Shown one piece after another: positions 25,471-45,765 of a DNA stretch of 64,000 nucleotides. The notes under the pieces are model-generated. The model ran no database searches. It was not told the origin of the DNA and worked only from the letters and a program-made list of their open reading frames with translations. The stretch is taken from the NCBI RefSeq assembly GCF_903866365.1, contig NZ_CAIPNF010000352.1, positions 1 through 64,000 of the forward strand, in the 5' to 3' direction. The stretch is from an uncultured Thiocystis sp. (lineage in GTDB: Bacteria > Pseudomonadota > Gammaproteobacteria > Chromatiales > Chromatiaceae). Each line of letters opens with the position of its first letter. Position 1 is the stretch's first letter. Made by a program: the position numbers and the translations under genes.

Positions 25471-27018
<1,548 letters not shown>

Positions 27019-27021
27019 CCC

Positions 27022-27861
27022 ATGCGGGCCTATCTGGATCTGCTGCGCGATGTCGTCGAAAACGGACTCGACAAATCCGACCGCACCGGGGTTGGCACCC
27101 GTTCGGTGTTCGGGCGGCAGGTCCGTTTCGATCTGCGCGAGGGCTTCCCGCTGCTCACCACCAAGCGCATGCACACCAAGAGCGTGATCCACGAGCTGCT
27201 GTGGTTTCTCTCCGGCTCGACCGACAACCGGCGCTTAAACGCGCAGGGCGTCAGCATCTGGGACGAATGGGCCGCCGAGGACGGCAGCCTGGGGCCGATC
27301 TATGGCGCCCAATGGCGAAGTTGGGCCTGTCCCGACGGCCGCATGATCGACCAGCTTGCCGAACTGGTCGCCACCATTCGCACCCGTCCCGACTCGCGCC
27401 GGTTGGTGGTCTCGGCCTGGAATCCGGCGGACCTGCCGGACGAGACCATCAGTCCAAAGGACAACGCTCGCGCCGGGCGCATGGCGCTCGCCCCCTGTCA
27501 CTGTCTGTTCCAGTTCTACGTCGCCGGGGGGCGTCTGTCCTGCCAACTCTATCAACGCAGCGCCGACCTGTTCATCGGCGTGCCCTTTAACATCGCCAGC
27601 TACGCCCTGCTGACGCATCTGATCGCCCAGCAATGCGACCTGGAGGTCGGCGAGTTCATCCACAGCTTCGGCGACCTGCATCTCTATCGCAATCATCTGA
27701 CCGACGCCATCGTCTTCGAGCAACTCGCCCGCGAACCCCGTCCTCTGCCGACCTTGCGTTTAGCGCATCGTCCGGCCAGTTTGTTCGACTATCGTTGCGA
27801 GGCGATCGAGATTACCGGCTACGATCCGCATCCTGCGATCCGCGCGCCAATTGCCGTTTAA
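27022..27861 (+). CDS. thyA: Thymidylate synthase ThyA
   Basis: A protein of 279 residues. The catalytic Cys159 lies in [12 protein letters not shown]. Other conserved parts are [18 protein letters not shown]-equivalent [32 protein letters not shown] and [14 protein letters not shown]. It converts dUMP to dTMP using methylenetetrahydrofolate. It follows gpmI by three bases and is probably cotranscribed. Confidence 0.96.
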
Positions 27862-27956
27862 GGCGGTTTCCAACTTACGATCGTCTTCCGAGCAACGCTT
27901 GCCAGCGTCTTCGCGAACCGCTGACGCGGTTTTCGGACGGCGTGAACGGCCAATAA

Positions 27957-27983
27957 ACAAGGCCGACGATCCGCCGGCCTTGT
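27957..27983 (-). terminator. Hairpin terminator for the rspA-side operon
   Basis: ACAAGGCCG and its complement CGGCCTTGT enclose nine bases. On the minus strand the stem is followed by TTTATTGG, so it fits the end of the minus-strand operon whose last stop is at 28023. On the plus strand it could also reduce read-through from thyA. Confidence 0.6.
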
Positions 27984-28022
27984 GACGCTGTTGAACAGTT
28001 CTGTCGAAGCGATGAGTCGGCT

Positions 28023-28361
28023 TCAGTAGCCGCCCTTGCGCATCACCGCCGGCAATCCCGCGATCTTGGTGCCCTGCTTGGTCGGGGCGAGCGGAAAGAG
28101 GGTGTACAGATCCTTGCTGGTCGGCTTGGAGCCCCAGAGTTTTCCCATGTCCTTGAGCACGACACGTTCCATCGGCTGGTTCTGGGCGTTGTTGATATAT
28201 TCCTCGCGGAGATACTTGATCACGTCCCAGTGCTTGTCGGTCAGTTCGATCCCTTCGATTTCCGCCAGCTTGCGCGCGACATCCTCGTCCCAGTCGGCAT
28301 AATTTTCCAGATACCCGTTATCGGTCGTCGCGATGGTTTTGCCGTTGACCTCGATGGCCAT
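28023..28361 (-). CDS. rspA: Cysteine-free DsrC/TusE homologue (RspA type)
   Basis: A protein of 112 residues with the DsrC fold pattern: IEVNGKTIATTDNGYLENYA, IELTDKHWDVIKYLREEY and DLYTLFPLAPTKQGTKIAGL. True DsrC ends in a flexible arm with two redox cysteines (C100 and C111 in the dsrC product of this window). Here the arm reads GLPAVMRKGGY and the whole protein has no cysteine. Such homologues are known as RspA and are thought to be regulatory, because they cannot carry sulfur. The start at 28361 has GAGGAGAA in front; the open frame extends 5' without support. It is the last gene of the minus-strand operon that also encodes a Cas6-like protein. Confidence 0.85.
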   Translation of the reverse strand: MAIEVNGKTIATTDNGYLENYADWDEDVARKLAEIEGIELTDKHWDVIKYLREEYINNAQNQPMERVVLKDMGKLWGSKPTSKDLYTLFPLAPTKQGTKIAGLPAVMRKGGY

Positions 28362-28499
28362 GATTAGGTTCTCCTCTTCGTCATTATCATCGTCAGCGCG
28401 CCATGGCCTGCATGACCGGCGCGAATGTTTCAAGGCTTGATCAAAGCTCGCGAATTTTATGATTTTATGATGAAGCCGTCATCAAAACGATTTTGATCG

Positions 28500-29186
28500 C
28501 TATCCTTGCTTGACCGAATCGATCCCCTTGTGCGGGATGAAGATCCCGCATCCCATCAGGCGATGGCTGCCAAGTCCGGTCTGCTGGAGCCGGATCGATT
28601 CCTCCGCCGTCAGGCTCGCCAGCATCAGGCTGCGAGTCTGGAGTGGGCCGTCCGGGGTGGCGAGCGCCGTGGTTTTGCCGCAGAGCGCCTTGCGCACCGA
28701 GATCCCTATCCCGGAGAGGGCGCGCACGGCGATCTCAAGAAAGGCTTGTTCGTCCCGAGCGTCGTTGCCGGTCACCACGTAACGGGCGAAAAGGGTGGCG
28801 TCCTTGCACAACGGCTTGATCTTGCCGGCGCCCACGGTCAGCGGATGACCGTCGAGTTCGAGGCGGATGCCGGGCAGTTGCGTCAGGATGTCGTCGACCC
28901 GCGCGCGGGGCGCGCGGATGGTCAGTTTGGTGCGGCGCGAGAGCATCAATTCGGCATCGGTGCCGTGCGCGGGGCGCTCCCAACCGTTCTGGGAGCCGGC
29001 GACATGAATGGTGTGCAGCGCCATGCCCGGTTCCTCCGCGATCCAGGGCAACGCCGCCTGGAGCGCCGAGGAGAGCAGATGCGCGTGATCCACCGGGAGA
29101 CACTTGCAGTCGATCGCAAAAAGGACGTCGACGATGTCGTCGGGAACCTGGACCTCGTCGGGATTTTCGTCTTCGTTCCAGAACAT
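28500..29186 (-). CDS. Cas6/RAMP-superfamily protein (Cmx6-like), not linked to CRISPR here
   Basis: A protein of 228 residues that I recognise as like the type I-MYXAN Cas6/Cmx6 family. The marks are FAIDCKCLPVDHAHLLSSAL near the N-terminus, LHTIHVAGSQNGWERP, SRRTKLTIRAPRARVDDIL, then SVRKALCGKTTALATPDG, TRSLMLASLTAEESIRLQ and the C-terminal glycine-rich loop GLGSHRLMGCGIFIPHKGI (residues 204-222), the RNA-contacting loop of RAMP proteins. Cas6 proteins cut CRISPR precursor RNA. No repeat array and no other cas gene is visible in 64 kb. It is encoded 138 bases upstream of a DsrC-like gene and beside dsrA. Its histidines (33-36 region, H58, H61) could support catalysis, but RNA cleavage is only an inference. 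Confidence 0.75.
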   Translation of the reverse strand: MFWNEDENPDEVQVPDDIVDVLFAIDCKCLPVDHAHLLSSALQAALPWIAEEPGMALHTIHVAGSQNGWERPAHGTDAELMLSRRTKLTIRAPRARVDDILTQLPGIRLELDGHPLTVGAGKIKPLCKDATLFARYVVTGNDARDEQAFLEIAVRALSGIGISVRKALCGKTTALATPDGPLQTRSLMLASLTAEESIRLQQTGLGSHRLMGCGIFIPHKGIDSVKQG

Positions 29187-29207
29187 GGTTCGTAAAGCCC
29201 TCTTTTT

Positions 29208-29292
29208 ATCCTGTCAATCTTGAAAAATCCTGTGAATCCTGTCCATTTGACGCGTTGATTCTGTGGCAAGCTTTTCCGGAAATCGCCTTAAC
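29208..29292 (-). repeat. Copy of a dispersed TTAAGGCGATTTCCGG...AAATGGACAGGA repeat
   Basis: Read on the minus strand from 29290, TTAAGGCGATTTCCGG is followed at the same spacing by GAATCAACGC and AAATGGACAGGA, as in the copy at 53748-53802. It fills the gap between the helical-protein gene and the Cas6-like gene, and it supplies the TTA that encodes the stop codon of the former. Confidence 0.6.
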
Positions 29293-30007
29293 CGAAGGGC
29301 AGGCGCTCCTGCAACGCCTCGCGGTCGAACCACCAGGCATCCTGGACCAGGACATCGACCACATTACGCAGGCGCACCAGAAATTTCTCCGGTTCCTTGA
29401 GTTCCAGCTTCTCCATCCATTGATCCAACTGCTCGCGGGAGTCCACGCCGCTGTGGCGGCGGGCGACGTTGCCGAGCAGTTGGGTGGAGAAAAACATCAA
29501 ATCCTCGCGCTGCCGGCCCTGTGCCCGCACATCGGCGAGAAACAGCGCCGTGGTCGCCGCGACGGCCGCGCCATCGGAATCGTCCGGGGTCTCGTCGATG
29601 ACATGACTAAGGAGTTCGATGGTCAGCTCGGGGTCGATCGGGCAGGTGACCGCGAGCCAGATCCCTTGCCCGAGGGCGGCGATCGAGTCGGGTTGATTGG
29701 CTTGAAAGAGGACATCGCAGGCATCCGCCGCAAGCTCGAACTGGTCCTCGGCGATGAAATGATCCAGTGCCGCGCGCCCGAGCGGCCAGGCGTCCTCTCC
29801 GCGATCCAGGTTGACCAGCGTGCGAGCCATTTGTAGATGCAGGTCGGCCACGCGATCCAGGGACGCCCCGGTTCGCTCAAGATGCGCCATCTGTTCGGTC
29901 AGGATTTGCAGGTGGGATTCCAGTGTGGCCGTTGCGAGACCCTGGTTGACAATGGAGTCGGCGGCTTGATCGGAAAGTTGGGTGGCGAGGAGTTCGAATT
30001 GCTTCAT
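29288..30007 (-). CDS. Helical protein of unknown function in the RspA/Cas6-like operon
   Basis: A protein of 239 residues from the ATG at 30005-30007; a longer frame to 30061 has no better start. It is acidic and appears entirely alpha-helical, with repeated helix pairs (HLQILTEQMAHLERTGASLD, AWPLGRAALDHFIAEDQFEL, AADACDVLFQANQPDS) that suggest a TPR-like or HEAT-like scaffold. There is no signal peptide or membrane segment. I do not recognise the family. It sits second in a minus-strand operon (63-residue protein, this protein, Cas6-like, RspA), so a scaffold role in that system is plausible. Confidence 0.7.
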   Translation of the reverse strand: MKQFELLATQLSDQAADSIVNQGLATATLESHLQILTEQMAHLERTGASLDRVADLHLQMARTLVNLDRGEDAWPLGRAALDHFIAEDQFELAADACDVLFQANQPDSIAALGQGIWLAVTCPIDPELTIELLSHVIDETPDDSDGAAVAATTALFLADVRAQGRQREDLMFFSTQLLGNVARRHSGVDSREQLDQWMEKLELKEPEKFLVRLRNVVDVLVQDAWWFDREALQERLPFG

Positions 30008-30029
30008 GACGGCATGCCTAGGGCCGGGG

Positions 30030-30221
30030 TTAACGGATAAGTCCACTGAATGCGGCCTCAAGTCGATCTTCCCAGTTTTCGGGCGTGTCGGGGTAGGGAG
30101 GCTTCACGTCCATGCGAAAAAAGCGCTCGCCGTCGCGGGCAATGGCCTGCACGATCGGAATGAGTTCTTCGAAAGACTCGATACCTTGATTGGCGACCAG
30201 GATTTCGCTGAGCTTTAGCAT
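30030..30221 (-). CDS. 63-residue protein of unknown function, first gene of the RspA/Cas6-like operon
   Basis: A small soluble protein: MLKLSEILVANQGIESFEEL, then PIVQAIARDGERFFRMDV and a tail with PPYPDTPENWEDRLEAAF. The start is an ATG; AGGAG is visible but further upstream than usual. It ends 22 bases before the next gene on the same strand. The translation has a balanced composition and regular helix-turn pattern rather than that of a random frame, and the spacing fits an operon. No family is recognised. Confidence 0.6.
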   Translation of the reverse strand: MLKLSEILVANQGIESFEELIPIVQAIARDGERFFRMDVKPPYPDTPENWEDRLEAAFSGLIR

Positions 30222-30663
30222 GATTGACCGTCACCGCTCCTACTCGTGGTGTTGATGATTCAAAATAAACGCCGTCACCAGTCGGTTGGATCGCGGTTGG
30301 TGGGGGCAGGGTCGTGGTTTGGCGACAGGCGAGCCGCTGGCGTGTCTGGCGCACAAGCGATCCTGTCGAGATAGCGCACGCGATAGAGCAGGCGTCGTTC
30401 GCTTGTCTGTCTTCGGTGAATCCTGAGCGATTATGTAAGACGATGTGTGCGATCAGGCTTTCGCCGGAGTGCATCCTTGGATTGAATGTGAAGTCCTCTG
30501 CGTGTGAAAACAACTGCTCGAACGCCCGGCTCGCGGCATCGGTCGCGGGTGACTCACGCCAGCGCATATGGCGTCCGCGAGCCGAATACCGCGGATGCAG
30601 GCGGCCCTGTCGAAATCGGGAGAGGACTCCTGGAATATAAGAAAGCGATTATATTAGTGAACG

Positions 30664-30692
30664 TTGACTTGCCCGTCATCGGGCTGTAGCAT
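30664..30692 (+). promoter_or_regulatory. Candidate upstream promoter with palindromic spacer
   Basis: TTGACT, a 17-base spacer and TAGCAT resemble a sigma-70 promoter pointing at dsrA. The spacer contains GCCCG-TCAT-CGGGC, a perfect inverted repeat, as if an operator overlapped the promoter. It would give a leader of about 350 bases. Confidence 0.35.
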
Positions 30693-30891
30693 TCGCGCAT
30701 TCCAAATGCAAGACGTGACGACCAAGTGGGGGGACACCTACGTCGGCGTCTGACGGTTCATCCGCGCGAATCGCAAGCCATCGCAAAGGGCTATATCCCG
30801 AAAGGGATAGACAATCGGTCGGCGGCCCTCCCAATCGTGGAATAGGCGGCTGCCGGATTCATCGGTACATTGGTACTCGACGATGAAATGA

Positions 30892-30919
30892 TTGATAGGG
30901 AATGATCGCTTCTTATTAT
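30892..30919 (+). promoter_or_regulatory. dsrA: Candidate main promoter of the dsr operon
   Basis: TTGATA, 16 bases, TATTAT: five of six consensus bases in each box, in the most AT-rich part of the 830-base region between the divergent operons. A start near 30926 would leave a leader of about 128 bases before dsrA. The rest of 30222-31053 has no gene that I can support. Confidence 0.5.
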
Positions 30920-31053
30920 GGCGTTCACTCTACATACGAAGAATAACGTGACGTGATGCATCGACGTGTTGCCACGGTTCGCCCGCCGCGGCGCGAATGT
31001 GCATGCGAACTCAATCCTCCCTTTCCTGGTTAATTGATAGGAGAGAATGCGCA

Positions 31054-32307
31054 ATGGCTATCGATAAGCACATTACCCCGATGCTCGACCAGCTTGAAAC
31101 CGGCCCTTGGCCGAGTTTCATTTCGGGCATCAAACGTCTGCGCGACCAGCATCCGGACGCGCGGATCAACGAGATGACCAATGATTTGCTGGGTCAGCTT
31201 GAGCACTCCTACGAGACCCGCAAGGGCTATTGGAAAGGCGGCACGGTTTCGGTCTTCGGCTATGGCGGCGGCATCATTCCGCGCTTTTCCGAGGTCGGCA
31301 AGGCGTTTCCGAAATCCAAGGAATTCCATACCCTGCGCGTGCAGCCCCCGGCGGGCAATCACTATTCCACCGGCATGCTGCGCCAATTGGCCGATAGCTG
31401 GGAGAAATACGGTTCCGGTCTGGTGACCTTCCACGGTCAGACCGGCAATATCATGTTTATCGGGACGGATACCCAAAACACTCAGCATTTTTTCGACGAA
31501 ATCAACGAATACGGTTGGGATCTCGGCGGCGCCGGTCCCTGCGTGCGCACCGCCATGTCCTGCGTCGGCGCGGCGCGCTGCGAGATGTCCTGCACCAACG
31601 AATTGAAATCCCATCGCATGCTCGTCAATAACTTTGTCGACGACGTGCATCGCCCGGCGCTTCCCTATAAGTTCAAGTTCAAGGTCTCCGGCTGCGCCAA
31701 CGACTGTCAGAACGCGATCGAGCGTTCGGACTTCGCGGTGATCGGCACCTGGCGCGACGACATGAAGGTCGATCAGGCCGAGGTCAAGAACTATATCGCC
31801 GACAAAGGCCGTCAGTATTACATCGACAATGTGATCACGCGCTGCCCGACCCAGGCGCTGGCGTTGAATGACGACAATACGCTCGCGGTCAATAATCGCG
31901 ACTGCGTGCGCTGCATGCACTGTCTCAATGTCATGCCGAAGGCGCTGCATCCGGGCGACGACAAGGGCGTAACCATTCTGATCGGCGGCAAGCGCACCCT
32001 GAAGATCGGCGATCTGATGGGCACCGTGCTGGTTCCCTTCAAGAAGCTCGAAACCGAGGAAGACTACGAGTCCATGGTCGAACTGGCCGGGACCATCATC
32101 GACTTCTGGGCGGAGAATGGCCTGGAGCACGAGCGCTGCGGCGAGATGATCGAGCGGATCGGGCTGGCGAACTTCCTGGAAGGGATCGAGGTCGAGCCGG
32201 ATCCGAACATGCTCAGTCATCCGCGCCAGAGTTCCTATATCCGTATGGACGGCTGGGACGAGGCGGCGGAAGCGTGGTTCGAGCGTCAAGCCGAGGCTGG
32301 CAAGTAA
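31054..32307 (+). CDS. dsrA: Reverse dissimilatory sulfite reductase, alpha subunit
   Basis: A protein of 417 residues. Siroheme-[4Fe-4S] cysteines are C170 and C176 (SCVGAARC) and C214 and C218 (SGCANDC). An inserted ferredoxin part has C264, C284, C287 and C290 (CPTQAL and CVRCMHC). AGGAGAG precedes the ATG at 31054; the frame is open earlier but the standard N-terminus starts here. In sulfur oxidisers DsrAB runs in reverse and oxidises sulfur delivered by DsrC to sulfite in the cytoplasm. First gene of the dsr cluster, 830 bases from the divergent RspA operon. Confidence 0.97.
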   Translation: MAIDKHITPMLDQLETGPWPSFISGIKRLRDQHPDARINEMTNDLLGQLEHSYETRKGYWKGGTVSVFGYGGGIIPRFSEVGKAFPKSKEFHTLRVQPPAGNHYSTGMLRQLADSWEKYGSGLVTFHGQTGNIMFIGTDTQNTQHFFDEINEYGWDLGGAGPCVRTAMSCVGAARCEMSCTNELKSHRMLVNNFVDDVHRPALPYKFKFKVSGCANDCQNAIERSDFAVIGTWRDDMKVDQAEVKNYIADKGRQYYIDNVITRCPTQALALNDDNTLAVNNRDCVRCMHCLNVMPKALHPGDDKGVTILIGGKRTLKIGDLMGTVLVPFKKLETEEDYESMVELAGTIIDFWAENGLEHERCGEMIERIGLANFLEGIEVEPDPNMLSHPRQSSYIRMDGWDEAAEAWFERQAEAGK

Positions 32308-32455
32308 TTCGATTGCGTTCGTCCGTCCCGGCGGCTGATCTCGGGCGCCATCGCAACGCGAGTTTGCCGATGGCCCCGGTCAACGCCGCGACGGACCGGG
32401 CGATCCGATCCTGACGACCCTATTCAAATTTCGACAGAAAACTGGAGGACAGGCA

Positions 32456-33526
32456 ATGGCGGACATGCGCGAGCCGATCGAATCTGGCTGCCCCGATCCC
32501 TGGCAGTATCTGCATCCCACGATGCGCAAGAACTTCGGGCAGTGGAAATATCACGAACATCCGCGCCCCGGCGTGTTGTTGCATGTCGCCTACAGCGGCG
32601 ACAAGATCTGGACGGTCAAGGCCGGCACCCAGCGCATCCTGGATGTCTTCACCCTGCGCAAGCTGTGCGATATCGGCGATCAGTTCGCCGACGGCTATGT
32701 CCACTTCACCCTGCGCTCGAACATCGAGTACATGGTCAATGACGAGACCAAGGTTCAGCCCCTGATCGACGCGCTCGAAGGCGCCGGTTTCGTGGTGGGC
32801 GGCACCCAGAACTCGGTGGCCATGATCTCCCACACCCAGGGCTGGCTGCACTGCGACATCCCCGGCACCGACGCCTCGGGCGTGGTGAAGTCGATGATGG
32901 ACGAACTCATCGACGAGTTCCGCAACGCCAACATGCCCAACCGCGTGCATATCACCACCTCCTGCTGCCAGATCAACTGCGGCGGTCAGGGCGATATCGC
33001 GATCAACATCCAGCACACCAAGCCGCCCAAGATTAACCACGATCTGGTCGCCAACGTCTGCGAGCGTCCGTCGGTTGTCGCGCGCTGCCCGGTCGCGGCC
33101 ATCCGTCCGGCCATGGTCAACGGCAAGCCCTCGCTGGAAGTCGACGAGCGCAAGTGCATTTGCTGCGGCGCCTGCTATCCGCCCTGTCCGCCGATGCAGA
33201 TCAACGATGCCGAGCATTCCAAGCTGGCGATCTGGGTCGGTGGCAACCACTCCAACGCGCGCGGCAAGCCGACCTTCCAGAAGCTGGTCGCCGCCGGTAT
33301 CCCGAACAATCCGCCACGCTGGCCGGAAGCGACCGCCATCGTCAAGCGCATCCTCAAGGCATACAAGGAAGGCGCGCGCGACTGGGAGCGGGTCAACGAG
33401 TGGATCGAGCGCATCGGCTGGCCGCGCTTCTTCGAGGAAGTCGAGCTGCCGTTCACCAAGTATCACATCGATACCTGGCGCGGCGCGCGGGCGAGCTTCA
33501 ACAGCTCCACCTATATCCGCTTCTAA
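32456..33526 (+). CDS. dsrB: Reverse dissimilatory sulfite reductase, beta subunit
   Basis: A protein of 356 residues. Cluster and siroheme residues include C133 in HCDIPG and the group TSCCQINCGGQGD (C170, C171, C175). Ferredoxin cysteines are C211 and C234-C244 (CICCGACYPPC). It forms the alpha2beta2 enzyme with DsrA. A ribosome site GGAGGA precedes the ATG. The 148-base gap to dsrA holds no gene. Confidence 0.97.
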   Translation: MADMREPIESGCPDPWQYLHPTMRKNFGQWKYHEHPRPGVLLHVAYSGDKIWTVKAGTQRILDVFTLRKLCDIGDQFADGYVHFTLRSNIEYMVNDETKVQPLIDALEGAGFVVGGTQNSVAMISHTQGWLHCDIPGTDASGVVKSMMDELIDEFRNANMPNRVHITTSCCQINCGGQGDIAINIQHTKPPKINHDLVANVCERPSVVARCPVAAIRPAMVNGKPSLEVDERKCICCGACYPPCPPMQINDAEHSKLAIWVGGNHSNARGKPTFQKLVAAGIPNNPPRWPEATAIVKRILKAYKEGARDWERVNEWIERIGWPRFFEEVELPFTKYHIDTWRGARASFNSSTYIRF

Positions 33527-33662
33527 GGCGCCCGTCCGCCGCGGCCGACTGGCGCGCGGCGGGGGGTGTCAAGTAGGTCCGATCCGAAGTGGGTTCGAGC
33601 ATCCGCATTCCGACACCCGCTCCGAAGCGAAGAGCTGCGGTCGTGGCAATGTCATCCGCGAG

Positions 33663-33687
33663 CTGACCACTGAAAACTGACCACTGA
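33663..33687 (+). repeat. Short direct repeat before dsrE
   Basis: CTGACCACTGA occurs at 33663-33673 and again at 33677-33687, in the 184-base gap between dsrB and dsrE. It resembles simple tandem spacers seen between genes; no function can be assigned. Confidence 0.45.
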
Positions 33688-33710
33688 CAACTCTAAAAAA
33701 TGAGGTCGAC

Positions 33711-34103
33711 ATGAAGTTCGCACTTCAGATCAACGAGGGACCCTACCAGCATCAGGCGTCCGACTCGGCCTATCAGTTCGCCAAGGCCGCGCTGGAAAAA
33801 GGGCACGAGATCTTTCGGGTCTTTTTCTACCATGATGGGGTCAATAACTCGACGCGTCTGACGACGCCGCCCCAGGACGACCGTCATATCGTCAACCGCT
33901 GGGCCGAGCTGGCCGAACAGTACGATCTCGACATGGTCGTCTGCGTCGCCGCCGCCCAACGTCGCGGGATCGTGGACGAGGGCGAGGCGAGTCGCAACGG
34001 TAAGGACGCCACCAACATCCATCCCAAGTTCCGCATCTCGGGACTCGGGCAATTGGTCGAGGCGGCGATCCAGGCCGACCGTCTCGTCGTCTTCGGCGAT
34101 TAA
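33711..34103 (+). CDS. dsrE: Sulfurtransferase subunit DsrE
   Basis: A protein of 130 residues of the DsrE fold, with Cys78 in DMVVCVAAAQRRG, the residue that carries persulfide in the A. vinosum protein. It forms the DsrE2F2H2 hexamer, which takes sulfur from upstream carriers and passes it to DsrC. DsrE is the subunit with the active cysteine. dsrF follows after 12 bases. Confidence 0.96.
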   Translation: MKFALQINEGPYQHQASDSAYQFAKAALEKGHEIFRVFFYHDGVNNSTRLTTPPQDDRHIVNRWAELAEQYDLDMVVCVAAAQRRGIVDEGEASRNGKDATNIHPKFRISGLGQLVEAAIQADRLVVFGD

Positions 34104-34115
34104 GGGGATCCAGAC

Positions 34116-34526
34116 ATGTCGGAAGTCGTGAAGAAATTCATGTACCTCAACCGTAAGGCCCCCTACGGGACGATTTACGCCTGGGAAGCCCTGGAAGTGG
34201 TGCTGATCGGCGCCGCCTTCGATCAGGACGTGAGCGTCGTGTTTCTCGATGACGGGGTCTATCAGCTCACCAAGGGCCAGGATACGAAGGGCATCGGGAT
34301 GAAGAACTTCTCCCCGACCTATCGCACCCTGGGCGACTATGAGGTCAAGAAAATCTATGTGGATCGCGCCTCCATGGAGGCCCGCGGGCTCTCTCAGGAG
34401 GATCTGGTCGAGATCGCCTGGGAGGATTTCGAGACCGAGGAAGAGATCGACAACATCGTCGAGGTGATCGATTCGGCGCGTGTGAGCGAACTGATGAACG
34501 AATCCGATGCGATCTTCAGCTTCTGA
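34116..34526 (+). CDS. dsrF: DsrEFH complex subunit DsrF
   Basis: A protein of 136 residues of the DsrE/TusC fold (VKKFMYLNRKAPYGTIYAWE, VSVVFLDDGVYQL). It has no cysteine at all, so it is structural in the hexamer. The acidic C-terminus (EDFETEEEIDNIVEVIDS) is typical. It sits between dsrE and dsrH. Confidence 0.95.
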   Translation: MSEVVKKFMYLNRKAPYGTIYAWEALEVVLIGAAFDQDVSVVFLDDGVYQLTKGQDTKGIGMKNFSPTYRTLGDYEVKKIYVDRASMEARGLSQEDLVEIAWEDFETEEEIDNIVEVIDSARVSELMNESDAIFSF

Positions 34527-34568
34527 TCCTCTGTCTCGTGATCCTAAAGTCTCCGGGGAGTGACTCGC

Positions 34569-34877
34569 ATGGCCATTCTGCATACCGTTAATAAATCACC
34601 CTTCGAGCGGAATTCGCTAGAATCCTGTTTGAAGTTTGCCACCGATGGCGCGGCTGTCCTGCTGTTCGAGGATGGCATCTACGCGGCGCTGTCGGGCACC
34701 AGCGTGGAGGCCCAGGTGGCCGGCGCGCTCGACAAACTGAACATCCATGTGCTCGGCCCCGATTTGAAGGCGCGGGGATTTTCCGATGAGCGCGTGATCG
34801 CTGGGATCAGTGTCGTGGACTATGCGGGCTTCGTGGATCTCGCCGCGGAACACGATACGGTTCAAGCCTGGTTGTAG
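34569..34877 (+). CDS. dsrH: DsrEFH complex subunit DsrH
   Basis: A protein of 102 residues from the ATG at 34569, which has GGGGAG eight bases upstream; a GTG three codons earlier overlaps that site. The TusB-like sequence MAILHTVNKSPFERNSLESC carries Cys20, conserved in DsrH. It completes the DsrE2F2H2 hexamer. dsrC follows after 37 bases. Confidence 0.95.
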   Translation: MAILHTVNKSPFERNSLESCLKFATDGAAVLLFEDGIYAALSGTSVEAQVAGALDKLNIHVLGPDLKARGFSDERVIAGISVVDYAGFVDLAAEHDTVQAWL

Positions 34878-34914
34878 TTTTCGTTTTTACCGAAATCAAG
34901 AGAGGAATAGCGCA

Positions 34915-35253
34915 ATGTCAGACACGATCGAGGTGGACGGCAAGCAGTATGCCGTGGACGAAGAAGGCTATCTGGCCAACCTGACCGAATGGGTGCCCGG
35001 GATTGCTGGCGTCATGGCCAAGCAGGACAACCTGGAGCTCACCGACGAGCATTGGGACATCATCAACTTCCTGCGCGAGTACTACGAGGAATATCAGATT
35101 GCCCCGGCCGTGCGCGTCCTGACCAAGGCCGTCGGCAAGAAGCTGGGCAAGGACAAGGGCAACAGCAAGTATCTTTACAGCCTGTTCCCTTACGGACCCG
35201 CCAAGCAGGCGTGCCGTTTCGCCGGCCTTCCGAAGCCGACCGGCTGCGTCTAA
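34915..35253 (+). CDS. dsrC: Sulfur carrier protein DsrC
   Basis: A protein of 112 residues. The C-terminal arm AKQACRFAGLPKPTGCV has both redox cysteines, Cys100 and the penultimate Cys111. DsrC takes persulfide from DsrEFH and presents it to DsrAB as a trisulfide-type intermediate; its disulfide or thiol state is linked to DsrMKJOP. The start is the ATG at 34915 with GAGAGGAA upstream. Compare the cysteine-free homologue at 28023-28361. Confidence 0.97.
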   Translation: MSDTIEVDGKQYAVDEEGYLANLTEWVPGIAGVMAKQDNLELTDEHWDIINFLREYYEEYQIAPAVRVLTKAVGKKLGKDKGNSKYLYSLFPYGPAKQACRFAGLPKPTGCV

Positions 35254-35322
35254 GGCAGCGGTTCTCCGGGGAGCCCACGGGTTCCCCGGACCTTATTATC
35301 GATCCACCGAGGTAGCGGAGAC

Positions 35323-36054
35323 ATGGCGTTTCTGACGAATTTCTACGTCTTCCTGTTCTATTTTGCCGCTCTGGTTCTCGTCACTGGTCTGGTCTTCAAG
35401 ATCGCACAGTACACGATGACCCCCGCGCCCTTGAAGATCCCGACGACGCCGGCGCCGACCACGACCCGCGGCGTGGTCTTGCGGATGACGCGCGAAGTTG
35501 TCCTGTTCGAGAGCCTGTTTCGGGGCAACAAATGGACCTGGATCTTCGGTTGGATGTTTCACTTCGGACTGCTGCTGGTCACGCTGCGGCATCTGCGCTA
35601 TTTCATGGAGCCGGTCTGGTTCCCGATTCAGCTGGTGCAGCCCTTCGGCATTTACGGCGGCATGGCCATGATCGTGGGCCTCGGCGGTCTCTGGGCGCGT
35701 CGTTTTCTGGTCGACCGCGTGCGCTACATTTCATCGCCCTCCGATCATCTGATCCTGGCGCTGCTGGTTCTGATCGGATGCACGGGTCTGCTGATGAAAT
35801 TCGTGTTCCATACGGACGTGGTGGAAATCAAAGCCTTCTTTCTGGGGCTCTATACCTACGAGATCCAGCCGCTCCCGGCCGATCCGTTGCTGTTGCTGCA
35901 TCTTTTCCTGGTCGCGCTGCTGATGATCGTGTTCCCGTACAGCAAGCTTCTGCATGCCCCCGGACTCTTTTTCAGCCCGACCCGCAACCAGGCCGACAAC
36001 CCGCGCGAGGTTCGTCATATCGCGCCCTGGGCAAAACAACTCGAACAAAAATGA
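35323..36054 (+). CDS. dsrM: DsrM, membrane cytochrome b subunit of DsrMKJOP
   Basis: A protein of 243 residues with about five or six membrane helices (FYVFLFYFAALVLVTGLVF, WMFHFGLLLVTLRHL, LLLLHLFLVALLMIVFPYSK) and His residues in GWMFHFG, LRHL and LLHLFL placed as in NarI-type diheme cytochrome b. It passes electrons between the quinone pool and DsrK. DsrMKJOP spans the inner membrane. GGTAGCGGAG precedes the ATG. Confidence 0.95.
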   Translation: MAFLTNFYVFLFYFAALVLVTGLVFKIAQYTMTPAPLKIPTTPAPTTTRGVVLRMTREVVLFESLFRGNKWTWIFGWMFHFGLLLVTLRHLRYFMEPVWFPIQLVQPFGIYGGMAMIVGLGGLWARRFLVDRVRYISSPSDHLILALLVLIGCTGLLMKFVFHTDVVEIKAFFLGLYTYEIQPLPADPLLLLHLFLVALLMIVFPYSKLLHAPGLFFSPTRNQADNPREVRHIAPWAKQLEQK

Positions 36055-36110
36055 GTCCAACGCGAGACCCCCAGCGCGCCCAAGGCGTCGCTTGCATACG
36101 AGGTTGATCC

Positions 36111-37661
36111 ATGGCCAAGGCAACATTTGTAGTTCCGGAACTGACCCAGTACACCGAAGTCCCGGCGGTCACTCCCGGTGCGATGGCGCATAGTCTGCCG
36201 TTCGTGGCGAAGCCGGAGTTCCAGGGCGCGCTTGGTTTTCCGGGCGAACTGGTCGATGACTGGCAGGCGAAGGCCATCGACAAGATGGGCGACCTGCTGG
36301 GCAAATACCGCTCGCTGCGGGTCTATATGGACGCCTGCGTCAAGTGCGGCGCTTGTACCGACAAATGCCATTACTTCCTGGGGACCGGCGATCCGAAGAA
36401 CATGCCGGTCGGTCGTCAGGATCTGATGCGCAAGGTCTATCGGCGCTATTTTACGCTGGCGGGGCGGTTTTTCCCGACACTGGTCGGGGCCGAGGACTTC
36501 ACCAAGGAGGTGCTGGACGACTGGTACAGCTATTTCCACCAGTGCTCTCAGTGTCGCCGCTGCTCGGTCTTCTGTCCCTATGGAATCGACACGGCGGAGA
36601 TTTCCATGGCCGCGCGCGAGATCATGGACAGCATTGGCGTCGGGCAGAAATACTGCAACGAAATCATCGCCAAGGTTTACAAGATTGGTAATAATCTCGG
36701 GCTGCCCGGCCCGGCGCTGGTGGATACCCTGGAAGGACTGGAAGAAGACGTCTTCGACGACACCGGCGTCAAGGTCCGCTTTCCGATCGACGAGGAGGGG
36801 GCCGAGATCCTGCTGGTCACCCCTTCGGCGGACTTCTTTGCCGAGCCCCATGTCGACGGTCTGATCGGCTATGCCAAGGTCTTCCATGAGGCCGGGGTGT
36901 CCTGGACCATGAGTTCGCATGCCTCGGAAGCGGCCAACTTCGGCATGTTCATCGGTTCCTACGAGAACATGCGCCGCGTGTCCCAGCGCATCCGCGAAGC
37001 CGCCATCAAGCTCAAGGTCAAGCGCATCGTCTTCGGCGAGTGCGGTCATGCCTGGCGTGTCGCCTACAGTTTTCTGAACACCCTGGCCGGTCCCTGGGAT
37101 TTCCTGGATCCGCGCTATCCGGTGCCGCAGCATATCTGCGAGTTCACCCACGACCTGATCCAGCGCGGCAAGCTGACCTTCGACAAGAGCGAGAACGTCG
37201 ACAAGGTTCTGACCTATCACGATAGTTGCAACGTGGCCCGCGCCTCGCGCATGGGCGATGTGCCCGGCGGTCAGTTCGATATCCCGCGCGACATTATTCG
37301 GGCGGTCTGCAACCATTTTTACGATATGGACGAGGACACCATCCGCGACCGGACCTTCTGTTGCGGTGGCGGCGGCGGTCTGCTGACCGACGATCTGATG
37401 GAACTTCGGGTCAAGGGCGCCAAGCCCCGTCTCGATGCCCTGAACAATGTCATGCAGGAAAAAGGCGTCACCCACATGGCCGCCATCTGCGCCATCTGCA
37501 AGACCCAGTTCAGCAAGGTCTTGCCCTACTACGGCATGGAGATGGATCAGATCATCAGTCTGCATCAACTGGTGGGGGATGCCATCGTGCTGACTCCCGG
37601 ACCCGATGACGACGCCGAGGACGATGACCGCGACGACGCGGACGATCCGAACGAAGAATAA
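36111..37661 (+). CDS. dsrK: DsrK, catalytic iron-sulfur subunit (HdrD-like)
   Basis: A protein of 516 residues. Two ferredoxin motifs (CVKCGACTDKC and CSQCRRCSVFC) are followed by two CCG-type domains with YHDSCNVAR, FCCGGGGGL and AICAICKTQF, which build the noncubane cluster of heterodisulfide-reductase-like proteins. It works on the cytoplasmic side of DsrMKJOP, reacting with DsrC thiol or disulfide. The C-terminal tail is very acidic (repeated Asp and Glu), as is common in this protein. dsrL follows after 150 bases that contain a GC-rich inverted repeat. Confidence 0.96.
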   Translation: MAKATFVVPELTQYTEVPAVTPGAMAHSLPFVAKPEFQGALGFPGELVDDWQAKAIDKMGDLLGKYRSLRVYMDACVKCGACTDKCHYFLGTGDPKNMPVGRQDLMRKVYRRYFTLAGRFFPTLVGAEDFTKEVLDDWYSYFHQCSQCRRCSVFCPYGIDTAEISMAAREIMDSIGVGQKYCNEIIAKVYKIGNNLGLPGPALVDTLEGLEEDVFDDTGVKVRFPIDEEGAEILLVTPSADFFAEPHVDGLIGYAKVFHEAGVSWTMSSHASEAANFGMFIGSYENMRRVSQRIREAAIKLKVKRIVFGECGHAWRVAYSFLNTLAGPWDFLDPRYPVPQHICEFTHDLIQRGKLTFDKSENVDKVLTYHDSCNVARASRMGDVPGGQFDIPRDIIRAVCNHFYDMDEDTIRDRTFCCGGGGGLLTDDLMELRVKGAKPRLDALNNVMQEKGVTHMAAICAICKTQFSKVLPYYGMEMDQIISLHQLVGDAIVLTPGPDDDAEDDDRDDADDPNEE

Positions 37662-37698
37662 GAGACCGACGAGGCGGCCCGAACGAGGCCATCGAGCG

Positions 37699-37747
37699 GG
37701 GGCCGGGTGGCGCGACTGACGCGGTCCAACCGAGACGGCCCGGCCCC
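37699..37747 (+). promoter_or_regulatory. GC-rich stem-loop between dsrK and dsrL
   Basis: GGGGCCGGG (37699-37707) and CCCGGCCCC (37739-37747) form a perfect nine-bp stem around 31 bases. No T run follows, so it is more likely an mRNA stability or processing element than a full terminator. It lies 38 bases after the dsrK stop and 65 bases before dsrL. Confidence 0.5.
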
Positions 37748-37811
37748 GTGACCTGATACGAACCCCCTGATCCCGCGTCAGGGCATCATTTGGTAGAGGA
37801 GACTGAACACG

Positions 37812-39776
37812 ATGGCGACTTCCAGCGACGAGATGAAGACCAAGCCCTCATGGCGCCGTTTTGAAGACGGCAATCATGTTTGGGAGAAACTGACCGACAA
37901 GATCTTCAATCAGGATACCTCCCATAAGTGTCCGACCTATGTCCACAAGACGCCTCCCTGTCAGGGAAGCTGTCCCTCCGGCGAGGACATCCGCGGCTGG
38001 TTGCAGATCGTGCGTGGCATGGAGCAGCCGCCGGCGGGCATGGATCGGCATGAATACGCCTTCCGCCGCTCCACCGAGGCCAATCCCTTTCCGTCCATGA
38101 TGGGTCGGGTCTGTCCCGCGCCCTGCCAGGACGGCTGCAACCGCAACGAGCTTGAGGATTTCGTCGGCATCAACGCGGTCGAGCAATTCATCGGCGATAC
38201 CGCCATCGCCAACGGCTACAAGTTCGACGCCGCGCCGGCCGACACCGGCAAGCGCGTCGCCATCATCGGCGGCGGCCCGGCCGGTCTGGCGGCGGCCTAC
38301 AACCTGCGCCGCAAGGGTCATGCCTGCACCATTTTCGAGTCGAACGAGGGTCTGGGCGGCATGTTCCGCTTCGGCATCCCCGGCTATCGCGTGCCGCGCG
38401 ACAAACTCGACGCCGAGATTCAGCGCATCCTCGATCTGGGCCAGGTCGAGGTCAAACTCAAGACCCGCGTCGGCACCGATGTCAGCGTCGAACAGCTTGA
38501 GAAGGACTATGACGCCATCCTCTGGGCGATCGGCTGTCAATCCGGGCGCGGTCTGCCGGTGCCGGGCTGGCAGGGTACCCCGAACTGCGTCTCGGGCGTT
38601 GCCTTCCTCAAGGCGTATAACGAAGGCCGGATGAAGTTCACCGCCGACAAGGTGGTCTGCGTCGGCGGCGGCGACACCTCCATCGACGTGGTTTCGGTCG
38701 CGCGCCGGCTCGGTCACATCACCAAGACCGGCAACAGCGCTCTGCCCGAAACCGTCATCCGCGACGGTTACGTGGCGCACGATGCCGCGAACGCCGCCGC
38801 CGCCGAGGGCGCCGAGGTGACTTTGACCTCGCTGTTCACTCGCGACAAGATGACCGCCTCCGAACACGAGGTGCATGACGCCACCCGCGAGGGCGTGACC
38901 ATCCTCGACGGCGTCATGCCGCTCGAAGTCATCAAGGACGCCAACGGTCGCGCGACCGGGCTGAAGGTCGCCGACTGTGCCATGACCGATGGCCGGCCGA
39001 CGCCCGTCGATGGCACCGAGCGCGTGCTGGCCGCCGACCTGATCGTCTCCGCCATCGGGCAGGGCGGCGATCTGTCCGGGCTGGAGGCGTTCGACAATGG
39101 CCGCGGCCTGATGGACTCCGACAAGTTCTATCAGGTGCCCGGCAAGGCGGGGCATTTCGTCGCCGGCGACATCATCCGCCCGCATCTGCTGACCACCGCC
39201 ATCGGTCAAGCCTGGATCGCGGTCGAGTCCATCGACGAATATGTCAATCAGGCCGAGCACAAGCGGCGTCCCAAGGTCGACGTGCATCACTTCAATCTGC
39301 TGAACAAGATGACCGAGGCCCATCTGGCCCCGGAAGCCTTCAAGCCAGCCGAGCGCGGCGACATGCGCGGCACCTCTGACGCCAACTACGCCATCCACAA
39401 CTACGAGGATCGCTCGGGCGCCGAGGTCATCCCGCACGACGAACTCTTCCTGGGGCACTTCAACTACGTGGCGCGCAATCTGCGCAAGGAAGAGGTGCCG
39501 AGTTCCGAGGACGTGCTGGGTCATTTCCACGAGCGCGTCATCGGACTGACCGAGGAAGAGGCGGTCAACGAGGCCAAGCGCTGCATGAGTTGCGGCATGT
39601 GCTTCGAGTGCGACAACTGCGTCATCTTCTGCCCGCAGGACGCCGTCTTCCGGGTCGACAAGAACAGTCGGACAACCGGCCGTTACGTGGATACCGACTA
39701 TGCCAAGTGCATCGGTTGTCACATCTGCGCCGATGTCTGTCCGACCGGCTACATCAAGATGGGACTGGGCGAGTAA
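37812..39776 (+). CDS. dsrL: DsrL, iron-sulfur flavoprotein NAD(P)H oxidoreductase
   Basis: A protein of 654 residues. The N-terminal glutamate synthase beta-like part has cysteines in CPTYVHKTPPCQGSCPSGED and GRVCPAPCQDGCNR. FAD binding is GGGPAGLAAAYNLRRKG (near residue 155), and the NAD(P) site is VCVGGGDTSIDVVSVARRLG. Two C-terminal [4Fe-4S] motifs are CMSCGMCFECDNCVIFC and CIGCHICADVC. DsrL interacts with DsrAB and takes up the electrons of reverse sulfite reduction, passing them to NAD(P)+. The presence of dsrL supports the oxidising direction of this pathway. Confidence 0.96.
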   Translation: MATSSDEMKTKPSWRRFEDGNHVWEKLTDKIFNQDTSHKCPTYVHKTPPCQGSCPSGEDIRGWLQIVRGMEQPPAGMDRHEYAFRRSTEANPFPSMMGRVCPAPCQDGCNRNELEDFVGINAVEQFIGDTAIANGYKFDAAPADTGKRVAIIGGGPAGLAAAYNLRRKGHACTIFESNEGLGGMFRFGIPGYRVPRDKLDAEIQRILDLGQVEVKLKTRVGTDVSVEQLEKDYDAILWAIGCQSGRGLPVPGWQGTPNCVSGVAFLKAYNEGRMKFTADKVVCVGGGDTSIDVVSVARRLGHITKTGNSALPETVIRDGYVAHDAANAAAAEGAEVTLTSLFTRDKMTASEHEVHDATREGVTILDGVMPLEVIKDANGRATGLKVADCAMTDGRPTPVDGTERVLAADLIVSAIGQGGDLSGLEAFDNGRGLMDSDKFYQVPGKAGHFVAGDIIRPHLLTTAIGQAWIAVESIDEYVNQAEHKRRPKVDVHHFNLLNKMTEAHLAPEAFKPAERGDMRGTSDANYAIHNYEDRSGAEVIPHDELFLGHFNYVARNLRKEEVPSSEDVLGHFHERVIGLTEEEAVNEAKRCMSCGMCFECDNCVIFCPQDAVFRVDKNSRTTGRYVDTDYAKCIGCHICADVCPTGYIKMGLGE

Positions 39777-39793
39777 GGCCCTTGGAGGCGTCG

Positions 39794-40267
39794 ATGGCTA
39801 CAGCCGTACTCAGAGCGAGCCTCGTCGCCGTCGGATTGGTCTGGACGCTTGCCGTCCAGACCGTTCAGGCGGAGGACGTGAAGCGTTACGTGGTCGAAGG
39901 CTCGCGGGCCGCGGGGCTTGAATCCTGTGTCGAGCCAACCGAACGGATGCGCCGTCAGCACATGGAGTTCATCAAGCATCAACGCATCGCCACGGTTCAT
40001 GAAGGCATCCGAACCGAGAAATACAGCCTGTCCGGGTGTGTCGACTGTCATATCAGCTACGACCAGGAACGGGTTCCCAGGCCAATCAACGATCCGGATC
40101 AGTTCTGTGGCGCCTGCCATGCGTTCGCCGCCATCGACCTGAATTGCTTCGACTGTCACGCCGCCGTGCCCAATGGGGCGCGACTCGATGCCACGGCCAT
40201 TGCCGCGCATCGGGCGGCGGGTGTCGGGCCGTTGGTCCAGTCTCGTCGCGATGGAGAGGACCGCTGA
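39794..40267 (+). CDS. dsrJ: DsrJ, periplasmic triheme cytochrome c
   Basis: A protein of 157 residues from the ATG at 39794 with GGAGG in front. A signal peptide (AVLRASLVAVGLVWTLAVQT, cleavage after QA) is followed by three haem sites: CVDCH, CGACH and CFDCH. Cys45 in LESCVEPTE fits the unusual distal cysteine ligand reported for DsrJ. It is the periplasmic redox subunit of DsrMKJOP. Confidence 0.95.
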   Translation: MATAVLRASLVAVGLVWTLAVQTVQAEDVKRYVVEGSRAAGLESCVEPTERMRRQHMEFIKHQRIATVHEGIRTEKYSLSGCVDCHISYDQERVPRPINDPDQFCGACHAFAAIDLNCFDCHAAVPNGARLDATAIAAHRAAGVGPLVQSRRDGEDR

Positions 40268-40268
40268 G

Positions 40269-41054
40269 ATGAAAGACGAAAACGAAGCCAGCGACGCGGC
40301 GGTCGATCCCCGCCGCCGCGCCTTCATGGGCGTGGCCGCCGGCGTCACGGCCGCGGTGGTCGCCCCCGGCGTGCTGCTGCATGCGGTCGCCGCCGCGCCG
40401 CGCTCGGAGGCGGTCACCGACGATGTCCGCTGGGGCCTGCTGATCGATACCGCTAAATGCGTCGACGGTTGCTCGGCGTGCGTCGCTGCCTGCGATCGGG
40501 AGAACGGGCTCGACCTGCAGTCCAAGCCGGAGGGCCAGTCGCCGCTCAAGTGGGACAGTCAGAGGGCGGCCTGGATCCGCAAGGTCAAGCTCCAGGACAA
40601 CCAGACCGGTCGGGTCACCACGCTGCCCATGATGTGCCAGCACTGCGAACACCCGCCCTGCGTCGATGTCTGTCCCACGGGCGCCTCCTTCAAACGCGCG
40701 GACGGTATCGTCATGGTGGACCGCCACCTCTGTATCGGCTGCCGCTATTGCATGATGGCCTGTCCCTATAAGGCCAGAAGCTTTATCCACGAGGAAATGC
40801 ACGGTCAGCTCACGGCCGTCCCGCGCGGCAAGGGTTGCGTCGAGAGTTGCAACCTCTGTGTCCACCGCCGCGATTTCGGCGAGGAATCCACGGCCTGCGT
40901 CGATGCCTGTGCCGCCGAGGGCCACCATGCGATCATGTTTGGCGATCTTAAGGATCCCGCGAGCCCGATCAGCCAATTGCTCAAGGAGATGCCGAGCCGG
41001 CAGATCCGCGAGGATCTGTCCCTGAACACGGGCGTGCGCTATTCCGGTGTCTAA
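40269..41054 (+). CDS. dsrO: DsrO, periplasmic iron-sulfur protein with Tat signal
   Basis: A protein of 261 residues from the ATG at 40269. A twin-arginine signal (DPRRRAFMGVAAG) leads into four ferredoxin-type cysteine groups: CVDGCSACVAAC, CQHCEHPPCVDVC, CIGCRYCMMAC and CNLC with CVDAC. It belongs to the HybA/NrfC type and transfers electrons between DsrJ and DsrP. It begins two bases after the dsrJ stop. Confidence 0.95.
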   Translation: MKDENEASDAAVDPRRRAFMGVAAGVTAAVVAPGVLLHAVAAAPRSEAVTDDVRWGLLIDTAKCVDGCSACVAACDRENGLDLQSKPEGQSPLKWDSQRAAWIRKVKLQDNQTGRVTTLPMMCQHCEHPPCVDVCPTGASFKRADGIVMVDRHLCIGCRYCMMACPYKARSFIHEEMHGQLTAVPRGKGCVESCNLCVHRRDFGEESTACVDACAAEGHHAIMFGDLKDPASPISQLLKEMPSRQIREDLSLNTGVRYSGV

Positions 41055-41075
41055 CCAAGGCGAGTGAAACCGATT

Positions 41076-42326
41076 ATGAAACGAATCGTCTATCGCGAGT
41101 GGCGTATCTCGCCCGCTCGGTATTGGGGCATCCTCGGCATCCTGGCCGCGGTCGCGGGCATGGCCATACTCGCCTTCGGTTACATGGAGCATACCGGCCA
41201 CTGGGTCACCGGCATGAATAACTCGGTGGTGTGGGGTACCCCGCACGTCTTCGCCGTGTTCCTCATCATCGCTGCGTCCGGGGCGCTCAACATCGCCTCC
41301 ATCGGCACGGTTTTCCACAAACCGATCTATAAGCCGCTTGGACGACTCTCCGGTTTGCTGGCGGTTGCCCTGCTGATGGGCGGGCTGCTGGTGCTGGTCA
41401 TGGATCTGGGGCGTCCCGAGCGGCTCATCGTCGCCATGACTCACTACAACTTCAGCTCCATCTTTGCCTGGAACATCTTTCTCTATACCGGTTTCATGGT
41501 GATCGTCATCGCCTATCTCTGGACCATGGCGGATCGTCAGGGTGGGCCGTTCAATCAGCCGGTCGGTATCCTGGCCTTTGTGTGGCGTCTCGCGCTGACG
41601 ACCGGCACCGGCGCCATCTTCGGCTTTCTGGTCGCCCGCCAGGCCTATGACGCAGCGATTCTGGCGCCCATGTTCGTCATCATGTCCTTCGCCTACGGAC
41701 TGGCGGTTTTCATGCTGGTGCTGCTGTTCACCTTCGCCGACGAAGGCCGTCCGATCGGACCCAAGGTCATGAGACGCCTGAAAAATCTGCTGGGCGTCTT
41801 CGTGGCTGGCGTGCTCTATTTCACCCTGGTGTATCACCTGACCAATCTCTACGGCGCCAAGAACGATGGCCTGGAGCACTGGCTGCTGCTGAGCGGCGGC
41901 ATCTATACCTTCCTGTTCTGGGTCGGCTGGGTGCTGATCGGCGGTCTGCTGCCGCTCGGGATCCTCTATCATCCGGAGTTGAGCAAGGAGCGCAACTGGA
42001 TCGTGGCCGCCTGTTCCCTGGTCATCCTGGGCGGACTGGCGACCCTCTACGTGATCATCATCGGCAGTCAGGCCTATCCCATCCAGATGTTCCCCGGCCA
42101 GACCATCCTGGAGTCCGGCTTTCTCGATGGCGTGAAGGGTCAGCCTGGACCCTACAGTCCCACCATCCCCGAGGTTCTGTTGGGGCTGGGCGGGGTCGCG
42201 GTGGCCTTGATTGTCACGGTCGTGGGTGTGCGGGTGCTGCAATTCCTGCCTGAATCGCTGGCGGACGGCGTGGTCCCGGTCGACGAGGAAACCCTCAGCG
42301 AGGAGGCATTCGCCAAGCCGGCCTGA
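41076..42326 (+). CDS. dsrP: DsrP, NrfD-type membrane subunit
   Basis: A protein of 416 residues from the ATG at 41076; a GTG four codons earlier also fits. About ten membrane helices, for example YWGILGILAAVAGMAILAFG, VFLIIAASGALNIASI and LLLSGGIYTFLFWVGWVLIG. NrfD-type proteins exchange electrons with quinones. It anchors DsrO and DsrJ on the periplasmic side. dsrN follows after five bases. Confidence 0.94.
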   Translation: MKRIVYREWRISPARYWGILGILAAVAGMAILAFGYMEHTGHWVTGMNNSVVWGTPHVFAVFLIIAASGALNIASIGTVFHKPIYKPLGRLSGLLAVALLMGGLLVLVMDLGRPERLIVAMTHYNFSSIFAWNIFLYTGFMVIVIAYLWTMADRQGGPFNQPVGILAFVWRLALTTGTGAIFGFLVARQAYDAAILAPMFVIMSFAYGLAVFMLVLLFTFADEGRPIGPKVMRRLKNLLGVFVAGVLYFTLVYHLTNLYGAKNDGLEHWLLLSGGIYTFLFWVGWVLIGGLLPLGILYHPELSKERNWIVAACSLVILGGLATLYVIIIGSQAYPIQMFPGQTILESGFLDGVKGQPGPYSPTIPEVLLGLGGVAVALIVTVVGVRVLQFLPESLADGVVPVDEETLSEEAFAKPA

Positions 42327-42331
42327 GACCG

Positions 42332-43711: not shown

Positions 43712-43814
43712 CGATAGCGTCGCAGTTGGAGATCCGTTTTTAAACCGTATCAGCTCTGTATCGCGGTGTGATATTTCGCTTCAAGTTGTGCGCCGATGCT
43801 GACGCATCTTTCCG

Positions 43815-43919: not shown

Positions 43920-43937
43920 AAACAGGAGACATCAAGC

Positions 43938-44084: not shown

Positions 44085-44199
44085 AGACCCTCGCGTAGCA
44101 AAGATGACCGACAAAAAGAACGTCGGAGATTTGTTCGCTCAGTATTCACTAACAAAAGATGGACACCAGTATTGCGCCCAACATGGCCTGTTGTGAAAA

Positions 44200-44293: not shown

Positions 44294-44355
44294 ATCAGGA
44301 AGGCCAGTTCCTTGTCTGTCTAAGGTGTCTAAAATCGTCTAAAAGGGAGAGATCG

Positions 44356-45762: not shown

Positions 45763-45765
45763 CTG

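Follow-up and report, generated by a model that had tools for sequence, protein, structure and literature searches.

The reverse-acting dissimilatory sulfite reductase (rDsr) locus has been studied in Allochromatium vinosum (PMC3397948), and for Thiodictyon a further DsrC-like gene, THSYN_22565, is listed whose number is near those of its dsr cluster (PMC5944118). The available portions of these two papers describe the same dsr gene cluster and contain no mention of a Cas6-like gene at either locus; nor was any paper linking Cas6 with dsr found in the literature searched, which leaves out most subscription journals. Here, a 64-kb stretch of DNA from an uncultured Thiocystis sp., termed the window, was analysed, and all gene positions are given in its coordinates. 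As described in the original prediction, four minus-strand genes, orf63, hel, cas6 and rspA (the module), are present in the window and lie divergent from dsrA. The closest described relatives of the cas6 product are the Cas6 of a type I-B transposon associated with clustered regularly interspaced short palindromic repeats (CRISPR), or CAST (8fcj_B), and the type I-MYXAN Cas6/Cmx6 proteins (TIGR02807, PF09559), the likeness being one of profile and predicted fold. An aspartate-histidine motif and a glycine-rich loop are shared between comparison Cas6 copies and the dsr-linked protein. In contrast to the I-B CAST and I-MYXAN proteins, however, the latter forms a separate clade, has an additional NGW.RP loop, is mostly of near-neutral charge and is tied to dsr. 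Unlike the settings of those proteins, the dsr locus has no array or other cas gene, in a window that was not scanned for every cas family.

Examination of further genomes confirmed that the observation is real and wider than first noted. In the sampled Gammaproteobacteria, the rDsr locus is almost universally accompanied by a member, mostly in single copy, of a Cas6 lineage that has departed from CRISPR. The gene usually diverges from dsrA and has RspA as its partner, and orf63 and hel often join it. In a class sample of 370 gammaproteobacterial genomes, each at least 90% complete, PF09559 was detected in 128 and hel in 95. The dsrA set comprised 125 genomes (123 with matches above cut-off and two, G288 and G327, with fragments), and 122 of these contain PF09559, compared with 6/245 genomes without dsrA (Fisher p 5e-86, shared descent ignored). 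In the three exceptions (G189, G201, G279) dsrA lies 0.1–1.8 kb from a contig end, with orf63 at the edge in G201. Of the six genomes with PF09559 and no dsrA, G154, G205, G356 and G372 hold further module-like genes, G175 is represented by a 3.5-kb contig bearing Cas6 alone, and the G447 protein groups with the comparison copies. Wherever PF09559 and dsrA fall within 10 kb on one contig they are divergent (90/90); they are on different contigs in 29 genomes and far apart on one contig in three (G188, G378, G444). PF09559 is retained even in genomes of 1.0–1.5 Mb. Across the class sample, the linkage of Cas6 to dsrA and RspA is conserved. Of 219 genomes in a phylum sample, 34 have dsrA above cut-off; PF09559 was present in all three of these that belong to the class and in none of the 31 outside it. 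Since a Cas6 family protein stands beside dsr in nearly every sampled dsr-bearing gammaproteobacterium, with or without CRISPR, it probably serves sulfur metabolism in some way not yet described.

A similar pattern was evident in a sample of 96 genomes from the window's own family, in which PF09559 was found in 85 genomes, nearly always as a single copy. Approximately 8 kb of flanking sequence on each side was fetched for 85 of the 90 PF09559 places, excluding that of the window and four short fragments. The order orf63-hel-cas6-rspA with divergent dsrA was observed at 64 of these loci. Seven have orf63-hel-cas6 and divergent dsrA with no rspA beside cas6, four possess rspA as well as hel and orf63, dsrA being out of reach, one has hel and rspA, one has orf63 only, and eight have no module gene. 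Four of the last (L077, L079, L096, L115) are distant second copies of 27–33% identity, and the others (L036, L045, L067, L072) are at a contig end or have no module beside the copy. PF09559 is missing from 11 family genomes, and ten of them are also without a full dsrA, three of these ten being <85% complete; among the genomes lacking PF09559, G072 has a dsrA fragment at a contig end, and G039 has dsrA 2.9 kb from a contig end with no module gene in that interval. A scan of named genomes returned at least 557 relatives; among the 80 kept, many of which are named Chromatiaceae, 56 carry the complete module divergent from dsrA, and a further 10 lack only an adjacent rspA. In the Allochromatium loci L131, L136 and L144, Cas6, hel and orf63 are divergent from dsrA.

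It could be argued that cas6 is simply carried along beside dsr with no functional tie, in keeping with a co-occurrence statistic that ignores shared descent. This seems very unlikely, given that dsrA and PF09559 are jointly absent from five family genera with genomes >90% complete (g13, g35, g46, g56, g61), that Cas6 is kept in G188, G378 and G444 although far from dsrA, and that cas6 is under purifying selection, with a dN/dS ratio against Thiocystis minor of ∼0.22 (hel 0.07, rspA 0.09, orf63 0.07). In G444, a single contig of 1,160,782 bp (L246, L252, L314), Cas6, RspA, hel and orf63 are all kept but scattered, apart from dsrA.

The dsr-linked Cas6 is also independent of CRISPR. A Cas1 match, weak ones counted, was obtained in 62 of the 96 family genomes and none in the other 34; PF09559 is kept in 28/34 genomes without Cas1 versus 57/62 with it (p 0.19). 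No CRISPR array was present in the window, as the original prediction had stated, a repeat search (length at least 22, distance at most 150) returning only one two-copy family, and CRISPR-like arrays were located near just two of 186 dsr-side loci, both on the same Achromatium contig. The window's genome does contain, on contig L197, a type I-B-like locus with Cas8b-, Cas7b-, Cas3- and Cas1-like genes, Cmr5, Cmr6 and an array of at least eight repeats. Its presence, together with the Cas1 matches in the family, lends something to the notion that the dsr-linked protein is an ordinary Cas6 processing CRISPR RNA in trans for a system elsewhere. However, the L197 locus encodes a separate Cas6 belonging to a different family (PADLOC Cas6 E 5e-57, Cas6b), and the retention of PF09559 without Cas1 and the scarcity of nearby arrays likewise make this hardly credible. 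The dsr-linked protein was therefore rejected as the Cas6 of that locus, and no type I system using it was found, in a genome that was not scanned for all arrays. The idea that a Cas6 had been taken over for another job is hence strongly supported by the linkage to dsrA and RspA, the independence from Cas1 and the separate Cas6 of the genome's CRISPR locus. No arrays were seen around five comparison PF09559 copies in the stretches examined, and a phage search gave no match. The locus clearly exemplifies how a cas gene can become fixed in a metabolic setting outside CRISPR, and it adds an apparently near-universal, undescribed component to one of the main pathways of sulfur oxidation, both in purple sulfur bacteria and in small genomes. 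A database rule that names such genes 'type I-MYXAN CRISPR-associated protein Cas6/Cmx6' may mislead CRISPR surveys.

The identity of the 228-residue protein was supported by profile and structure alike. Both curated cut-offs were exceeded, at 224.5 bits for PF09559 (E 1.4e-66, cut-off 26.7) and 117.1 bits for TIGR02807 Cas6/Cmx6 (cut-off 98.85), and PF09559 was matched by 56/56 members of set A6. The predicted model (predicted local distance difference test score, pLDDT, 89.1) adopts the tandem ferredoxin-like fold of repeat-associated mysterious proteins, and its best match is 8fcj_B (Z 25.0, root-mean-square deviation 2.0, 199 residues), followed at lower Z by RNA-processing Cas6 enzymes (5yi6_A, Z 16.4). 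A quickly built tree of 94 proteins has a branch (support 97) that separates the 85 dsr-labelled proteins from nine comparison PF09559 copies; of the latter, L077, L079, L096 and L272–L274 have cas1 or cas3 within ∼9 kb, and the remaining three are L115, L268 and L271. The glycine-rich C-terminal loop reported initially is present in the stretch GLGSHRLMGCGIFIP, and across the dsr-labelled proteins its G206 and G212 are each kept in 102/103 and G214 in 103/103. His34 immediately precedes the first long helix and is conserved in 102/103 dsr-labelled proteins and 9/9 comparison copies. W69 of the NGW.RP loop, specific to the dsr clade, occurs in 101/103 dsr-labelled proteins versus 0/9 comparison copies. 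The L271 copy is without an annotated cas neighbour: on a Gloeobacter morelensis plasmid, the Cas6/Cmx6-annotated gene (3974–4765) has hypothetical proteins and a gene of the phosphoadenosine phosphosulfate reductase family in its vicinity, and is perhaps another Cas6 outside CRISPR.

The adjacent DsrC homologue belongs to a kind termed RspA-type, a name not found in the literature searched. It matches PF04358 (DsrC; 116.6 bits, E 8.6e-34) and TIGR03342 (100.3 bits, above cut-off), as expected of the DsrC/TusE family, and differs from that family in its absence of cysteines, an RKGGY end and a Cas6 neighbour, an arrangement of which the literature searched yielded no description. The cysteine-free character claimed for the window's protein was borne out, and extends to 67/70 module RspA proteins; RKGGY ends 69/70, the remaining one being cut by a contig end. 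By comparison, two cysteines are present in 61/63 of the dsrC products encoded at these loci, and 61 end in PTGCV or PTGCI. The two C-terminal cysteines that are the hallmark of sulfur-carrying DsrC are absent from nearly all module RspA proteins. The distant RspA proteins of L247 and L248 end in GKGGY, and that of L247 has one cysteine. In the family, RspA adjoins Cas6 at 69/77 module loci, which strongly supports the pairing that was proposed, if conserved, as a new system; the lack of linkage in other genomes that would have spoken against it was not encountered. In the class sample hel was found solely in genomes that also have Cas6 (95/95). Its model (pLDDT 90.7) best matches tetratricopeptide repeat (TPR) proteins, with Z up to 13.6, a value reachable by chance for helical repeats. 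As a candidate Cas11/Cse2 small subunit, hel gave weak profile matches (Cse2 in 3/40 members, best E 0.0011; Cas11e, E 0.0083), and its structure matches are TPR-like. No Pfam family was found for orf63, and profile searches gave no convincing family match for hel or orf63. Both proteins are acidic, with median isoelectric points (pI) of 4.5 and 4.4, respectively.

That the dsr-linked Cas6 acts on RNA, that this RNA belongs to dsr and that RspA gates it are inferred; we would place at roughly 45% the reading in which the protein binds and probably cuts RNA, most simply dsr RNA, under RspA gating, thereby tuning dsr after transcription. The Cas6 protein would still bind, and probably cut, one specific cellular RNA through the retained His34 and glycine-rich loop, with a dsr-locus RNA as the simplest candidate. 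RspA, which has the shape of DsrC but cannot carry sulfur, would report the state of DsrC/DsrAB to Cas6, with hel as a docking platform. The module would then tune dsr expression post-transcriptionally, in addition to a promoter-level switch acting through a palindrome that precedes dsrA; dsr regulation is reportedly the subject of a study by Grimm et al. 2010. The sharper version, that a CRISPR-derived RNA endonuclease became, once, in gammaproteobacterial rDsr ancestry, a dedicated post-transcriptional switch of core energy metabolism that cuts dsr-locus RNA and is gated by a cysteine-free DsrC mimic, RspA, sensing DsrC in use, is advanced tentatively. If true, Cas6 cutting dsr RNA under RspA gating would represent a novel form of control by RNA processing.

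Several observations weigh against RNA-level control of this kind. The profile alignment places Asn at the His34 position in 8fcj_B, the closest solved Cas6, so His34 need not mean cutting. The 82 family dsr-linked proteins have a median pI of 6.2 (range 5.0–9.8) and a net charge of -3, whereas pI is above 9 in 8/9 comparison copies; most dsr-linked proteins have therefore lost the net positive charge of the latter, although L245, L246 and L250, among seven class members read, are basic (8.4–9.8). Seven family loci with dsrA, hel and orf63 have no RspA beside Cas6. Among seven family genomes checked that lack RspA behind Cas6, a full RKGGY-ending RspA is encoded elsewhere in six, and in the seventh (G018), where Cas6 is at a contig end, no RKGGY-ending RspA was found. 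Similarly, hel is missing from 30 of the 122 class genomes having dsrA and PF09559, and in the 92 genomes with all three it adjoins Cas6 in 42 and is apart from it in 50. All 31 non-gammaproteobacterial dsrA genomes do without the module, and the co-occurrence test, as noted, takes no account of shared descent. Finally, no target RNA was found, a search of Rfam with positions 27000–46000 of the window (E up to 1) returned nothing, and the element upstream of dsrA does not behave as an RNA hairpin (below). The post-transcriptional control of sulfur oxidation suggested in the original prediction hence stays conditional, with the missing target, the operator-like element at dsrA and the lost charge counting against it.

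Some of these data would suit a Cas6 fold that acts by binding only, either by joining RspA, hel and orf63 in a complex that regulates or assembles DsrAB/DsrC, or by binding RNA without cutting. The lost positive charge, the Asn in 8fcj_B, the TPR-like hel and the acidity of hel and orf63 all fit such a role, while the near-invariant His34 and glycine-rich loop, as in active Cas6, speak against it, leaving it a possibility, if a doubtful one. TusE, a DsrC relative, serves tRNA thiolation, and the retained Cas6 site could also be read as acting on tRNA or another general RNA, with a TusE/DsrC-like protein and an RNA-processing enzyme coupling sulfur supply to translation; this is improbable, however, since PF09559 tracks dsrA and not sulfur relay generally (six of the 245 genomes without dsrA).

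Candidate elements near dsrA were considered in relation to the proposed action of Cas6 on dsr RNA. The palindrome TATCCC-N4-GGGATA, a single site upstream of dsrA, is present at up to 2 mismatches in 135/148 gammaproteobacterial upstream regions (family and named regions having some genomes in common), 0/20 non-gammaproteobacterial regions and 4/168 shuffled ones. Exact copies occur in 18/54 relatives (21 sites, at least 13 at dsrA as judged by coordinates), and the reversed pattern in none. Among 57 unique 16-mers with up to 2 mismatches, stem changes comprise 17 G-U, 12 C-A, 14 other and 0 compensatory. Since C-A is about as common as G-U and compensatory changes are absent, the palindrome was rejected as a Cas6 RNA hairpin and is probably, judged from its sequence, the DNA operator of a dedicated regulator. 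In G188 and G444, whose Cas6 is not near dsrA, the palindrome is still present at dsrA, in G444 with one change; none was found at dsrA of G378 at up to 1 mismatch. A sigma-70 promoter between palindrome and dsrA was rejected as a shared feature, the mean best score of 7.52 being near that of shuffled sequence (7.25; 124 loci), and one 10/12 match lies at 30892–30919. The dsrA-dsrB gap often has a strong hairpin of non-conserved sequence and, at many Cas6 loci, outscores shuffled sequence in folding, with z < -2 in 34/60 family, 28/58 named and 7/12 class gaps, family and named loci overlapping, versus 4/18 loci without PF09559 (p 0.015 against the family). The hairpin is missing from several Cas6 loci (L237, L241, L243, L244), and as a Cas6 substrate it is only a lead. 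Folding of the cas6-rspA gap gave a mean z of -0.61 over 69.

Table 1. Position and description of features annotated in the window
Feature	Position	Strand	Description	Evidence
orf63	30030-30221	-	63-aa conserved protein, first gene of module	aligned in 29 loci (set A4)
hel	29288-30007	-	239 aa from ATG, TPR-like helical protein; longer TTG frame extends to 30061	
dsr-linked Cas6-family protein	28500-29186	-	228 aa	PF09559 and TIGR02807 above cut-off, fold model, clade
RspA-like, cysteine-free DsrC homologue	28023-28361	-	112 aa, C-terminus RKGGY	
dsrA	30997-32307	+	divergent neighbour of module	TIGR02064 E 1.2e-200
Palindrome TATCCC-GAAA-GGGATA	30794-30809	none	upstream of dsrA, probable operator	
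TauD-like dioxygenase C-terminal remnant	30412-30630	-		tblastn 53% over 73 aa
dsrA-dsrB gap with predicted hairpin	32308-32455	+	lead for RNA target	

The rspA end of the module is faced by a thymidylate synthase gene (27022–27861, plus strand). Of the shared end at one hairpin proposed for the four genes, a hairpin 3' of rspA is visible by eye at ∼27980–27955 but is absent from the list of a terminator scan. Short repeats of the ACAGGAT type were noted by eye between hel and cas6 (29200–29245). An apparent orf63-hel fusion in L041 was ruled out by a stop codon between the two. The window's TauD-like remnant has no Pfam match; in relatives, 17/19 long divergent regions contain, between orf63 and dsrA, a gene for a TauD-like Fe(II)/2-oxoglutarate dioxygenase, which is intact in many (L039, L042, L050, L066 and others), the L039 homologue being a member of PF02668.
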